This document shows, in pieces, positions 9,584 through 14,152 of a stretch of 64,000 nt of DNA (positions are counted from its first letter, which is position 1; each line of letters begins with the position of its first letter). The notes beneath the pieces were generated by a model. It was given only the letters and a program-made list of their open reading frames with translations. It searched no databases and had not been told where the DNA came from. Source of the stretch: Pinibacter soli (lineage in GTDB: Bacteria; Bacteroidota; Bacteroidia; Chitinophagales; Chitinophagaceae); assembly GCF_029961145.1 (NCBI RefSeq), contig NZ_JASBRG010000004.1, positions 1-64,000 of the forward strand, given 5' to 3'. A program made the translations under genes and the position numbers.

Positions 9584-9613
9584 AAGCCGTTAGATGTTCT
9601 AACGGCTTTTTTT
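9584..9613 (+). terminator. Rho-independent terminator after trxA
   Basis: Perfect 11-bp stem AAGCCGTTAGA (9584-9594) with TCTAACGGCTT (9598-9608), three-base loop TGT, followed by an unbroken T run to 9613. A textbook intrinsic terminator. Confidence 0.93.
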
Positions 9614-9688
9614 ATATACAGACTTTATACTATAGTTGGCAAATAATCGATTTATCGTATATCCAACTTTATTTTTTTTTATAACATT

Positions 9689-9719
9689 TTTGCTTTGATA
9701 AAACTTTCGCATATTTTTG
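9689..9719 (+). promoter_or_regulatory. Promoter for the ParB-like/Dam module
   Basis: TTTG (9689-9692), 19-nt spacer, TATTTTTG (9712-9719): both Bacteroidota sigma boxes at the expected spacing. The predicted transcript start near 9726 leaves a leader of about 115 nt before the ATG at 9840, long enough to hold regulation, though no structure stands out. Confidence 0.6.
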
Positions 9720-9839
9720 AAATAATACCGATTTAGAATATCTTTTAGTGCCTATCATCGAAACTTAACCCCTAACAGTTTTTCGATCTAAATTAATAAA
9801 CAACCCCCATTGAATGATAACACCTAAAAGCAAAGTCAT

Positions 9840-11210
9840 ATGAATGTAACTCACAAAACAATTCCAATAACCAACCTAGCCGTAAGTATTGACAATCCTA
9901 GATTCGAAACTACCACTAACCAAAGAGATGCAATCTCTACAATGATAGAAGATCAAGCACCCAAATTACTTAAGCTGGCAAAAGACATAATAGATTTTGG
10001 ACTCAATCCAGCAAAAAAGATTTGTGTAATTCCTTCTGAAAAACCGTCTGGGCAATTTACTGTGTTAGAAGGAAATCGCAGAATCACCATTCTGAAAATA
10101 CTAAGTAATACAAATATTGTTGATGGCAAACATGCATCTTTTATAAAAAGTATAAAAAAACTAAGCGAAGCTTTTCAGAAAAATCCAATAAAAAATGTAG
10201 AATGTGTCATATTTCCAGACTCCGATAGTGCCTTAAAGTGGATTGAACTTGAGCATACTGGCGAGAATGAGGGAATTGGCGTGGTTTCTTGGGATGCACA
10301 GCAAAGAGCTCGCTTTGACAAAAAAGTCAAAGGAACAACTCCTCTAGCACTGCAGGCAATAGAACTAATGCATCGTTCAGAATTCACACCCAAAAAAATA
10401 AAAGAGGCGTTGCCAAATCTTACGATTTCAAACTTAGAAAGACTTCTGGGTGATCCAGACGTTAGAGATCTGCTGGGCATAAAGTTACAAGACAAAGTTT
10501 TATACTCCGAATTAGAAGAAAAAGAAGTTATGAAAGGACTTGGCAAAATTGCCGATGATTTTCTTTTCAACGATTATACTGTATATAATATTGATAAAAA
10601 GAAAGACCGTAAGACTTATTTAGAAAGCTTTACAAAACAAGATATTCCATCAAAAACAAAAAAATCAACGGACGGACCATGGCATCTTATTTCGAAATCT
10701 GCACCCAAAGTTGCTGAAGATGAAAAATCAAAAGCAAAAAACAAAAAAAGCGCACCCTTACCTTATGACAGAAAAACACTAATTCCACGTGATTGTGTAA
10801 TGACGATAAACGACAACCGCTTAAACTCCATCTATAGAGAGCTTAAAAATTTGGAAGTCGATGAGTTTGTTAACGCCACAGCAGTCTTATTTAGAGTATT
10901 TATTGAATTGAGCGTTGATCATTTGATCGCAACAAAAAAAGGCAAGGTGTTTCAGGGCATAAAAAAAATGACTCCCCTTAAAGAAAAAGTAGAAAAATCA
11001 ATCAAATATTTTGAAGACAGCCATTTAATTGAAGATGACAAATTGAAAGCAATTAATGTTGCAATTCAGAATAATCACAGCATTTTTTCAATCGACACTT
11101 TTAATGCTTACATACACAATCGACATATTAGTCCCATCGCAAAAGATCTCAAAGTAACATGGGACAACATTCAAGTATTCGTAGAAAAAATTTGGGAAAT
11201 TTCTAATTAG
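9840..11210 (+). CDS. ParB/Srx-fold N-terminal domain protein of unknown role
   Basis: 456 residues. The N-terminal 100 residues look like a ParB nuclease-like (ParB/sulfiredoxin) domain: NPRFE near residue 19, a block IPSEKPSGQFTVLEGNRR (GNRR at 78-81 corresponds to the GERR/NTP-contact box), then a helical region. The middle (about 260-310) is Lys-rich and disordered. The C-terminal about 130 residues are helical with LFRVFIELSVDH and a conserved-looking FNAYIHNRH...W block, reminiscent of HEPN-like or Abi-type C-termini, but this is not certain. It is 6 nt upstream of a DNA adenine methylase, so they are co-transcribed. It is not a chromosome-partition ParB, because no ParA partner or helix-turn-helix core is evident. 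A nuclease or regulatory partner of the methylase is the working idea (inference). Confidence 0.7.
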   Translation: MNVTHKTIPITNLAVSIDNPRFETTTNQRDAISTMIEDQAPKLLKLAKDIIDFGLNPAKKICVIPSEKPSGQFTVLEGNRRITILKILSNTNIVDGKHASFIKSIKKLSEAFQKNPIKNVECVIFPDSDSALKWIELEHTGENEGIGVVSWDAQQRARFDKKVKGTTPLALQAIELMHRSEFTPKKIKEALPNLTISNLERLLGDPDVRDLLGIKLQDKVLYSELEEKEVMKGLGKIADDFLFNDYTVYNIDKKKDRKTYLESFTKQDIPSKTKKSTDGPWHLISKSAPKVAEDEKSKAKNKKSAPLPYDRKTLIPRDCVMTINDNRLNSIYRELKNLEVDEFVNATAVLFRVFIELSVDHLIATKKGKVFQGIKKMTPLKEKVEKSIKYFEDSHLIEDDKLKAINVAIQNNHSIFSIDTFNAYIHNRHISPIAKDLKVTWDNIQVFVEKIWEISN

Positions 11211-11216
11211 ATTTAA

Positions 11217-12065
11217 ATGGAATTTTATTCACCCTTAAGATATCCGGGAGGCAAAGGAAAGATTTCGAATTTTATCAAATTAATTTTTGAAAAAAACTTA
11301 CTTGTAGACGGCTACTATGTTGAACCATATGCTGGCGGGGCATCTGTAGCGCTTTCGTTATTGTTTGATGAATATGCCTCAAACATCATTATTAACGATA
11401 TAGATCGCTCTGTTTTTGCCTTTTGGTATTCCGTATTAAATAACACTGAAGAATTTTGCGACTTAATATTGAAGACCAACATTACTACTAAGGTTTGGAA
11501 GCGACAAAAAGAAATACAAAAACAAAAAGATTCAACTAATCTATTGGAATTGGGATTTTCGACTTTCTTTTTGAATAGAACGAATCGCTCTGGTATAATC
11601 AAAGCAGGGGTTATTGGCGGAAATGCTCAAGATGGCAATTACAAAATTGATGCACGGTTTAACAAAGAAGAATTAATCCGAAGAATAAGACGAATAGCGG
11701 CTTACAAAGAGCGGATAGAACTCTTCAATTTGGACGCGATAGAGTTAATTACAACAATTTCAAACTATCTTCCTGAAAAGACTCTCATATATTTCGACCC
11801 GCCGTATTATGTCAAGGGTAAGGATTTATATGTAAATCATTACAAGCACGAAGATCATGTTCTAGTTTCAGAAATGGTTAATGGAATCACGGAACACAAA
11901 TGGATTGTTTCCTATGATAACGCACCGGAAATAAATAAAATTTATAAGAGAAATAAAAAATTTGAATACACCTTGAATTATAGCGCAGTAAATGCCACAA
12001 GTGGAACAGAGGTTATGGTGCATCATAATGATCTATATATACCAAGTTTCAATCCTATATTTTAA
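11217..12065 (+). CDS. D12-class DNA N6-adenine methyltransferase (Dam-like)
   Basis: 282 residues, the usual size for the Dam/MboIIA (D12) class. The order is motif X YPGGKGK (9-15), motif I EPYAGGAS (SAM binding), and catalytic motif IV DPPY (194-197), which fixes it as an amino-methylase acting on adenine. The C-terminal segment NYSAVNATSGTEVMVHHN is typical of plasmid and phage-borne members. No restriction endonuclease with a recognisable motif is adjacent; instead it follows a ParB-like gene by 6 nt and precedes a small unknown gene by 71 nt. Recognition sequence cannot be read from the protein. Visible AT bias relative to dnaE suggests lateral acquisition. Confidence 0.92.
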   Translation: MEFYSPLRYPGGKGKISNFIKLIFEKNLLVDGYYVEPYAGGASVALSLLFDEYASNIIINDIDRSVFAFWYSVLNNTEEFCDLILKTNITTKVWKRQKEIQKQKDSTNLLELGFSTFFLNRTNRSGIIKAGVIGGNAQDGNYKIDARFNKEELIRRIRRIAAYKERIELFNLDAIELITTISNYLPEKTLIYFDPPYYVKGKDLYVNHYKHEDHVLVSEMVNGITEHKWIVSYDNAPEINKIYKRNKKFEYTLNYSAVNATSGTEVMVHHNDLYIPSFNPIF

Positions 12066-12136
12066 TGCAAAATAAGAAACCAATAAATTGCTGCACTTTT
12101 TCTTATCTAATAAATATTTAAACCAAAAAGATTCCA

Positions 12137-12571
12137 ATGAAAGTAATTTTGTCTGGCGCTATCGCAAACTTTAGCGGATTAACAAACGAACAGTTTCTCA
12201 AATATTTACAAGAAAAAGATAATTCGATTGAATATTATCGTTTGCAACCCCAAAGCGGCGGAATATATTCGGCGTCACTAGATTGGAAAGCAATTGGCAA
12301 AGTTAGTGCAATACTAGGCATTGCATCGTTTCTATGGCAAGCTTACTCGGAACTTATAGCGCCGCACAAACTGCCTTCTTCAAATAGCGGAATTGTAATT
12401 TTTATTGAAAATGCAGGTCATCATAATCAATTTTGGATTGGACAAGATACAACATCCGAACAGGAACTGAAAGCTAAACTGGAAAAAGCCATAAGCGAAA
12501 TTGATACTGCTCAAAATGATATTCAACAAAAAATCATAAAAGAATCAAGTCATTGGAAGCAAATCAAATAG
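12137..12571 (+). CDS. Small unknown protein downstream of the methylase
   Basis: 144 residues, not recognised. The N-terminus (KVILSGAIANFSGLTNEQFLKYLQEKD) looks soluble alpha/beta, residues about 53-72 form one hydrophobic segment (AIGKVSAILGIASFLWQAYSELI) that may insert in a membrane, and the C-terminal 35 residues are a charged coiled coil-like helix. It is the third gene of the ParB-like/Dam unit and is closed by a hairpin at 12578-12632. A small potential membrane effector next to a modification enzyme is a common layout in anti-phage systems, but nothing here proves that. Confidence 0.65.
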   Translation: MKVILSGAIANFSGLTNEQFLKYLQEKDNSIEYYRLQPQSGGIYSASLDWKAIGKVSAILGIASFLWQAYSELIAPHKLPSSNSGIVIFIENAGHHNQFWIGQDTTSEQELKAKLEKAISEIDTAQNDIQQKIIKESSHWKQIK

Positions 12572-12577
12572 TTAAAT

Positions 12578-12632
12578 AAGTCGAACCAAGCATACTACAA
12601 CCTTTTTAGTTGCGATATACTTGGTTCGACTT
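12578..12632. terminator. 13-bp inverted repeat between convergent genes
   Basis: AAGTCGAACCAAG (12578-12590) pairs perfectly with CTTGGTTCGACTT (12620-12632) across a 29-nt loop. It sits between a plus gene ending at 12571 and a minus gene ending at 12692, so a bidirectional terminator is the simplest role. There is no good T run, and an old attachment site of the accessory patch is an alternative. Confidence 0.55.
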
Positions 12633-12691
12633 ATTGACTACTTCAAATTATCTTTTAGGATATTTGTATTATTCATCAACAGAGATATAAC

Positions 12692-13108
12692 CTACCTCTT
12701 CTCCAACAACTCCTTCAACATCTCCAACTTCTCCCTCTCACTTTTTACTAAAGCCTCATACAACTCAACTATTTTATCAATCGCATTAAAGGTGGGAAAA
12801 TAGTTTACAGTATTGATAGTTGAACTGTCATTGCTGGTGAATGTATTTGAGATAACATTTATTCCAGCGTCTTCGTCAAACTCCTTAAACAACTCCACCG
12901 GCACGCTAAGAATCTTTGCGATTTGCTCCAGCAATGCATCGTCAATTTCTTCTTTTTGTTCGAGCAAAGAGATTCTGCGTTGTGTCCAGTCTTCACCAAG
13001 TTCCATAGCTAAAGCTTCCTGTTTAACTCGTTTAAATTCTCTAAAGCGTTTAACGTTTCTTCCGTGGTGAATGGTTTTTCCTAAATAATTGTTTAAGTAC
13101 AAACACAA
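12692..13108 (-). CDS. XRE-family helix-turn-helix regulator, non-ATG start
   Basis: About 138 residues. Helix-turn-helix from about residue 18 to 75 (RNVKRFREFKRVKQEALAMEL, then QRRISLLEQKEEIDDALLEQIAKIL), a polar linker, and a C-terminal Leu/Glu helix (KIVELYEALVKSEREKLEMLKELL) likely for dimerisation. A familiar stand-alone regulator type in Bacteroidota. No ATG exists before the HTH: the frame can open only with TTG at 13108 or 13102, and a TATATTTG promoter box (13106-13113) overlaps the first of them. The start is therefore uncertain, and loss of an original ATG is possible. Function unknown; regulator of nearby accessory genes is inference. Confidence 0.7.
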   Translation of the reverse strand: MCLYLNNYLGKTIHHGRNVKRFREFKRVKQEALAMELGEDWTQRRISLLEQKEEIDDALLEQIAKILSVPVELFKEFDEDAGINVISNTFTSNDSSTINTVNYFPTFNAIDKIVELYEALVKSEREKLEMLKELLEKR

Positions 13109-13256
13109 ATATAATAAAATCGGGTAGCTACTGTAGCACGATAATTTTTTGCGTAAAAAAGAACATTTTACGCAAAAAGAAAAGTCCTTTCTGGAAACAA
13201 CTTACTGTTATTGAATCATAGCTTGGTGTGATTTCGAGACTATCTATAACAAAACA

Positions 13257-13291
13257 AAAGTTTCATTAAAAGGAAACTTTTATTACCTTCG
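13257..13291 (+). promoter_or_regulatory. Promoter and candidate autoregulatory operator of the toxin-antitoxin remnant
   Basis: Perfect 8-bp inverted repeat AAAGTTTC (13257-13264) and GAAACTTT (13273-13280), directly followed by TACCTTCG (13284-13291), one mismatch from the -7 box TAnnTTTG. The toxin ATG is at 13306. An operator just upstream of and touching the -7 box fits repression by the HigA-type antitoxin encoded downstream. Confidence 0.5.
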
Positions 13292-13305
13292 ACAAGTCAA
13301 ATTAA

Positions 13306-13654
13306 ATGGACAATAATTTTGAAATTGTTTTTTTGGCGGAAGCCTATGAGTTTTTAAAGTCGCTTGATATAAAACATTCCAGTAAGATACTTTACAACAT
13401 CAGAAAAGCTCAACAAAAAAACGACCCAGATCTGTCAAAAAATTAACAGATGATATTTGGGAGTTTAGGACATTATATCAAGGACTTCAATATAGACTGC
13501 TGGCATTTTGGGATAAAACAGATATGTCAATACACTTGTTATATCGACACATGGATTTATCAAGAAACAGAGTAAAGTGCCAGAGAATGAAATCTCAAAA
13601 ACGGAAATGCAGCGAAAAAAATATTTTCGGGACAAAATAAAAACTAAGAAATGA
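13306..13654 (+). pseudogene. HigB/RelE-type toxin gene, broken by two frameshifts
   Basis: Frame 1 from ATG 13306 reads MDNNFEIVFLAEAYEFLKSL...DPDLSKN and stops at 13444. Shifting by one base at the A6 run (13437-13442) restores KLTDDIWEFRTLYQGLQYRLLAFWDKT, and a second one-base shift near 13524 restores LVISTHGFIKKQSKVPENEI...FRDKIKTKK ending in a TGA (13652-13654) that overlaps the next ATG as ATGA. Joined, this is a complete, ordinary phage-derived Gp49/HigB-like mRNA-interferase toxin of about 115 residues. Both lesions look like one-base deletions. Decay, sequencing error in the A-run, or (less likely, since two sites are needed) recoding could explain it. Confidence 0.85.
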
Positions 13655-13965
13655 AAACATACACACTAGATGAAGTCACAGACAAAATCGTTGGCAAAAG
13701 AGGAACTCCATCAAGGGACAAGTTTGAATATGAACTTCAAATGGATTTAATTGGAAAAGCAATTAAAGAAAGCCGGCAGGAACGCAAATTAACACAAGAA
13801 CAACTTGGACAATTAGTTGGGGTTCAAAAAGCCCAAATTTCAAGGCTCGAAAGTAACGCGAGCAATGTGACCATCGACACATTGATGAAAGTTTTTGCTG
13901 CATTGAAAGCAAAAGTGAAACTTCAAATTGAGCTACCCAATGCAAAATTTAATTTGGCAAGGTAA
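13651..13965 (+). CDS. HigA-type XRE antitoxin
   Basis: 104 residues, intact. The N-terminal segment (TLDEVTDKIVGKRGTPSRDKFEYELQ) is the toxin-facing arm common to this family; residues about 36-90 are a Cro/C1 helix-turn-helix (RKLTQEQLGQLVGVQKAQISRLESNASNVTIDTLMKVF). The ATG overlaps the TGA of the decayed toxin frame, the usual toxin-first order of higBA operons. With the toxin broken it is a solitary antitoxin, which could persist as a repressor or neutralise related toxins elsewhere. Confidence 0.88.
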   Translation: MKTYTLDEVTDKIVGKRGTPSRDKFEYELQMDLIGKAIKESRQERKLTQEQLGQLVGVQKAQISRLESNASNVTIDTLMKVFAALKAKVKLQIELPNAKFNLAR

Positions 13966-14027
13966 AACTCTATTTAGTAGTTATTTTGCAATCGCAAGTG
14001 TTTCGCAGTCGCTATTGCTGACATTGC

Positions 14028-14130
14028 AGCGATAATAACGTACGAAAGCGCACCAACAAATGGTTGCAGTACCCAATGGCTGTTGGCGAGCCTGTTACAA
14101 TGCCACGCTTCACACCAACAGCGGCGCTCT
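14028..14130. repeat. Structured non-coding element, possibly attC-like
   Basis: The stretch contains CGCACCAACA (14049-14058) pairing with TGTTGGCG (14081-14088), and a second CACACCAACAGCGGCG block (14111-14126) that can pair with the same TGTTGGC. The segment TTCACACCAACAGCGGCG (14109-14126) is repeated with one change at 15586-15603 on the far side of the transglutaminase gene. Such competing imperfect palindromes flanking a single gene resemble integron cassette sites, but R boxes are not convincing. Confidence 0.3.
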
Positions 14131-14152
14131 AAGCCTTTGGTTGATTAATTCT

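Follow-up and report, generated by a model that had tools for sequence, protein, structure and literature searches.

The window analysed here is a stretch of 64,000 nucleotides from Pinibacter soli (contig NZ_JASBRG010000004.1, positions 1 to 64,000), and the element in question is a group of three genes, A, B and C, all on the plus strand and separated by 6 nt (A-B) and 71 nt (B-C). A preliminary description of this DNA had regarded the three genes as an undescribed defence or regulatory system made of a modification enzyme, a sensor and an effector. We found that genes A and B are an already described, widespread defence system and not a new one, the pair being almost certainly a copy of PD-lambda-5, and that gene C is most likely a bystander. 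The genes are as follows:

9840..11210, plus strand: gene A, 456 amino acids; homologue of PD-lambda-5 subunit A with a ParB/Srx-type N-terminus and a HEPN-like C-terminus
11217..12065, plus strand: gene B, 282 amino acids; D12-class DNA adenine methyltransferase, homologue of PD-lambda-5 subunit B
12137..12571, plus strand: gene C, 144 amino acids; orphan small protein outside the conserved system

The open reading frames (ORFs), their common direction and their spacing were exactly as previously given. Out of six frames for each gene, the codon-usage score was positive in the annotated one only, so genes A, B and C all look coding. The G+C content is 34-36% across the three genes and near 40% for much of the window, in agreement with the AT-rich patch that had been noticed, and each gene has one match in the window's own genome.

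The identity of the pair was given by the PADLOC models. Gene A matched PD-Lambda-5_A (PDLC03998) over residues 5-453 with an E value of 3.3e-155, and gene B matched PD-Lambda-5_B (PDLC04018) with an E value of 1.3e-124. Gene B was moreover recognised by Pfam as MethyltransfD12 (E 7e-20), carries a DPPY motif at residue 194 and matched PDB entry 7m6b (E 8e-16), which confirms its earlier assignment as a D12 methylase. No firm Pfam family was found in gene A. Likewise, no restriction-endonuclease family was recognised in A, B or C using Pfam and NCBIfam, scans that divergent enzymes can escape; the preliminary description had also seen none. PD-lambda-5 was published in 2022 by Vassallo et al. 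from an Escherichia coli screen against phage lambda-vir and is present in PADLOC; that paper reports broad phage defence for the E. coli system (PMC9519451). The pair can thus no longer be called undescribed.

We also compared the window with E. coli directly. A first DNA search yielded three records with a B-type methylase, and a second one found an A-B pair in a P2 prophage. Its A shares 30% and its B 50% identity with the window proteins, and it has the same best PADLOC models; this pair may differ from the sequence tested in PMC9519451. It sits between the replication endonuclease and portal genes of the prophage, a site described as a hotspot in PMC9519451. At the two loci of the first search that were inspected (L149 1930-4579 and L150 1924-4636), an AAA ATPase gene is followed by a B-type methylase with no A annotated nearby (PADLOC was run for the L149 genes only). 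This suggests that the B-type methylase may pair with different effectors.

The linkage of A and B was then evaluated in other genomes. In the phylum sample, gene A was present in 8 of 395 genomes, its own included (E <= 1e-10), and B adjoins A in all seven others; A is in two pieces in two of these, and B is cut by a contig end in one. A single-sequence scan of close-relative contigs with gene A alone gave nothing. An alignment-based wider scan with gene A produced 65 genome loci and 38 viral loci, labelled from Bacteroidota through Pseudomonadota, Bacillota and Chlorobiota to archaeal metagenome-assembled genomes; it repeats some genomes of the phylum sample (L066/G363, L058/G520). Five genome loci and nine viral loci were set aside before counting, as fewer than 400 nt followed A or the A match was weaker than 1e-5. 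Gene B was found on the same strand and within 150 nt of A at 48/60 genome loci and 28/29 viral loci (76/89 in all), and 13 of the 89 gene A relatives have no adjacent B. In one viral contig (L099 5968-9727), B lies 1.8 kb behind A with a 538-aa ORF in between.

The DNA following B varies. The largest recurrent group encodes an OLD/PtuA-like ATPase at 10 loci, as grouped by BLAST with a family scan of the L042 member only. It stands directly behind A-B on the same strand at seven Bacteroidales loci (L041-L045, L049, L050) and beside A-B on the other strand at three Pseudomonas loci (L061, L062, L064). At another locus (L028), the ORF downstream of B begins with MNMAHRVFISHKREDK and looks TIR-like by eye.

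The AlphaFold model of gene A, of high overall confidence (mean pLDDT 91.9), resolves two parts:

9840..10634, plus strand: gene A residues 1-265; ParB/Srx-type N-domain with GNRR box and ParB-like helical middle domain
10803..11207, plus strand: gene A residues 322-456; HEPN-like bundle

Both the ParB-type fold and the GxRR box are present in the N-domain, whose nearest fold relatives were ParB, Noc and KorB. The C-terminal bundle resembles HEPN ribonucleases in the model. The ParB/Srx-like domain and helical C-terminus proposed earlier are thus both seen, and the latter, then unassigned, is HEPN-like. In the model, H426 ends the penultimate helix, R352 and E356 lie on an earlier helix, and position 421 holds no arginine. 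Conservation was assessed in an alignment of the window protein with 58 near-full-length loci chosen from 103, three of which (L071, L073, L091) have no adjacent B. H426 was kept in 58/59 sequences, R352 in 58/59 and E356 in 57/59. Two other comparisons led nowhere: a PDB profile search with gene A gave three matches that we took as chance, the best being a designed protein at E 0.003, and BrxU was rejected as a fold relative at a Foldseek E value of 2.4.

The surroundings of the three genes were compared with two sibling species of the genus. The relevant features are:

9613..12691, no strand: variable segment from the trxA terminator to a conserved helix-turn-helix (HTH)-like gene, with other DNA in two sibling species
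9689..9719, plus strand: promoter-like TTTG-N19-TATTTTTG, 120 nt upstream of gene A
12575..12635, no strand: hairpin separating gene C from the HTH-like gene that converges on it

The window and the siblings share around 93% DNA identity up to the trxA terminator (9612) and are then unrelated until the HTH-like gene (12692). Gene A had no match in either sibling. Behind trxA, the siblings instead carry another gene with weak PycTM similarity (E 5e-5 and 8e-5), which in turn had no match in the window's genome, in a search without its own positive control. This replacement indicates that A, B and C occupy a variable slot, which carries different accessory genes in the sibling species. We saw no long direct repeats flanking the segment. 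In one sibling (G001; L143 6430-6552), 124 bp behind the PycTM-like gene duplicate the 3′ end of trxA together with its terminator (93.5%), as if insertions behind trxA carried a copy of the trxA end.

The promoter described as clear is present. Its pattern, however, was counted seven times across the window where shuffling predicts 5.15, and 28 of 100 shuffles reach seven; the count is near chance, so its presence alone proves nothing. The terminal hairpin was confirmed, with two arms of 27 nt (12575-12601 and 12609-12635) that are 85% complementary, and no clear T run was seen in the sequence immediately behind it. A broken toxin-antitoxin pair, described earlier next to the three genes, was not confirmed; the rest of that flank was not analysed beyond the gene directly after the hairpin (12692-13108, minus strand). 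This gene is an uninterrupted ORF of 138 amino acids that both siblings also possess, with a weak Pfam HTH_31 match below cut-off and a PADLOC HTH_VI match at E 1e-7. The HTH-like gene shares 72-74% DNA identity with the siblings, and its flanks 89-93%. Further on, the window DNA at 13137-14132 had no match to the sibling species.

Gene C behaved quite differently from the pair. No family was assigned to it by PADLOC, NCBIfam or PHROGs, and Pfam gave no match above cut-off. Its hydrophobic helix is weaker than first stated: the maximum 19-residue Kyte-Doolittle mean is just 1.33, which makes a membrane span doubtful. The long C-terminal helix did appear, at residues 108-141, in a model of low confidence (pLDDT 65) whose fold is probably alpha+beta; a fold search with this model gave nothing at E <= 0.001 and is uninformative at such a pLDDT. 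Searched in overlapping genome samples, so that the counts are not additive, gene C was found in 2/395 genomes (phylum sample) and 1/396 (order sample), its own genome counted each time. In the class sample, 4/395 genomes matched at E <= 0.01, namely its own, G206 and two with partial borderline matches (G610, E 0.0016; G824, E 0.0086). The relatives sample gave 3/196 matches, two of which (G116 and G189) were rejected as short local similarities to ORFs of another type, which we take to be an RluA-like pseudouridine synthase and an ABC-type permease.

The sole convincing relative of gene C is thus that of G206, with 37% identity over the full length (40% in the alignment), and this genome has no gene A match. 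At L148 7669-8365, a small ORF, SANT/Myb-like by eye, lies 7 nt upstream of the homologue, and the two are possibly a two-gene unit of their own. Nothing similar to gene C was found in phages, plasmids or viral contigs. We looked for a C-like ORF immediately behind B, as the first or second ORF, at 73 A-B loci (78 minus five without room behind B, the downstream gene being chosen by a length rule and not by a gene caller) and found none, so that the three-gene order does not recur there. Among ORFs of at least 40 amino acids in 144 loci, the only matches to gene C were the window gene itself and two that we rejected as chance. Occurrence of the genes apart from one another, which the preliminary description had named as evidence against a module, was therefore observed for gene C and not for the A-B pair as a rule. 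Gene C is most likely an unrelated or lineage-specific neighbour, a passenger of the variable slot with no sign of membership in the system, and it may adjoin A-B here because they share that slot.

These data, namely the homology, linkage, domain folds, conserved residues and slot replacement observed in this analysis, are best explained by a PD-lambda-5 A-B copy of the restriction-modification-plus-abortive-infection type with gene C as passenger, to which we give a probability of about 0.7. For the way it works we see roughly even odds on the following. The methyltransferase B would mark host DNA, because the mrr deletion suggests so. Protein A would be a single-chain sensor-effector, whose ParB/Srx-type domain, probably a nucleotide-dependent DNA-binding switch, would check DNA for the mark. 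Unmarked or otherwise foreign phage DNA would then release its C-terminal HEPN-like domain, most likely an RNA-cutting effector. Methylation sensing, RNase activity and a working state of this copy are what we infer here. The idea of a modification enzyme with a sensor and an effector survives in this form, as a methylase with a defence-like sensor/effector protein A; gene C as the effector is unsupported. One observation weighs against RNA cutting: the HEPN Rx4-6H motif is not present, as no arginine or lysine occurs at position 421 in any of the 59 sequences (0/59). A HEPN family that keeps the histidine and misses the arginine is described in PMC3710099.

The same loss would suit plain restriction-modification, in which the ParB/Srx-type domain of A is a DNase nicking unmethylated DNA and the HEPN-like part serves for binding or oligomers only. 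Single-strand DNA nicking has been ascribed to ParB/Srx proteins (PMC12839542). However, the conservation of H426, R352 and E356 points to an active site within the C-domain, and the authors of PMC9519451 favour restriction-modification plus abortive infection; we consider plain restriction-modification unlikely. Equally unlikely is a methyl mark that acts as a licence and not as a shield, A being primed by B-marked DNA as in the Ssp systems and acting when a phage disturbs it, since the 13 gene A relatives without an adjacent B argue against it. A partition or transcription regulator accompanied by an orphan methylase, with no defence role, would fit the nearest folds of the N-domain, but it is highly improbable: both genes belong to a defence family found by experiment, the E. 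coli pair lies in a prophage hotspot and the window pair in a variable slot, and a HEPN-like domain is fused to A.

A three-gene system, with gene C as a membrane-linked effector or regulator, draws on the co-direction of C behind B within the same replaced segment, and on the fact that C looks coding and has a conserved protein counterpart in one further genome. We judge it improbable in view of the lack of C relatives beside other A-B pairs, the convincing homologue in a genome without A and a helix not hydrophobic enough to be a clear membrane span; in both E. coli copies inspected, moreover, the annotation behind B continues with the phage portal gene. We hold slightly less still of the idea that a lineage-specific three-gene PD-lambda-5 has taken up C as an additional regulator or membrane-linked effector and that, separately, the HEPN site of A was rebuilt without the motif arginine, using H426 with R352/E356.

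The preferred reading, a PD-lambda-5 pair with gene C as passenger, makes the module a member of a widespread known system for which no mechanism was found in print in the literature searched. It offers a model open to experiment: protein A would combine a sensor of ParB type with a HEPN-like effector whose active site has changed, and the GNRR box, R352, E356 and H426 are the residues that the model singles out.

Compared with known systems, gene A differs from the modification-dependent nucleases SspE and GmrSD/BrxU, which carry an HNH nuclease: it has a HEPN-like C-domain and no HNH nuclease, and the window system brings its own adenine methylase. Type II restriction-modification is alike in the D12 adenine methylase adjoining a partner gene; it differs in that no endonuclease family is recognised in the partner A by Pfam or NCBIfam. 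Gene A resembles abortive-infection proteins of the HEPN type (AbiA C-terminus, HEPN toxins, DUF4145) in the helical bundle of its model and in the conserved histidine ending the penultimate helix; it differs from them in having no Rx4-6H arginine (59/59) and a conserved R352/E356 pair elsewhere. PD-lambda-5 differs from the window copy in position, the latter being in a chromosomal slot behind trxA and not in a P2 prophage, in the unrelated 144-aa gene that follows the window copy, and in sequence, window A being just 30% identical to the compared E. coli copy. The two are alike in both subunits, in gene order, in co-direction and in domain make-up.
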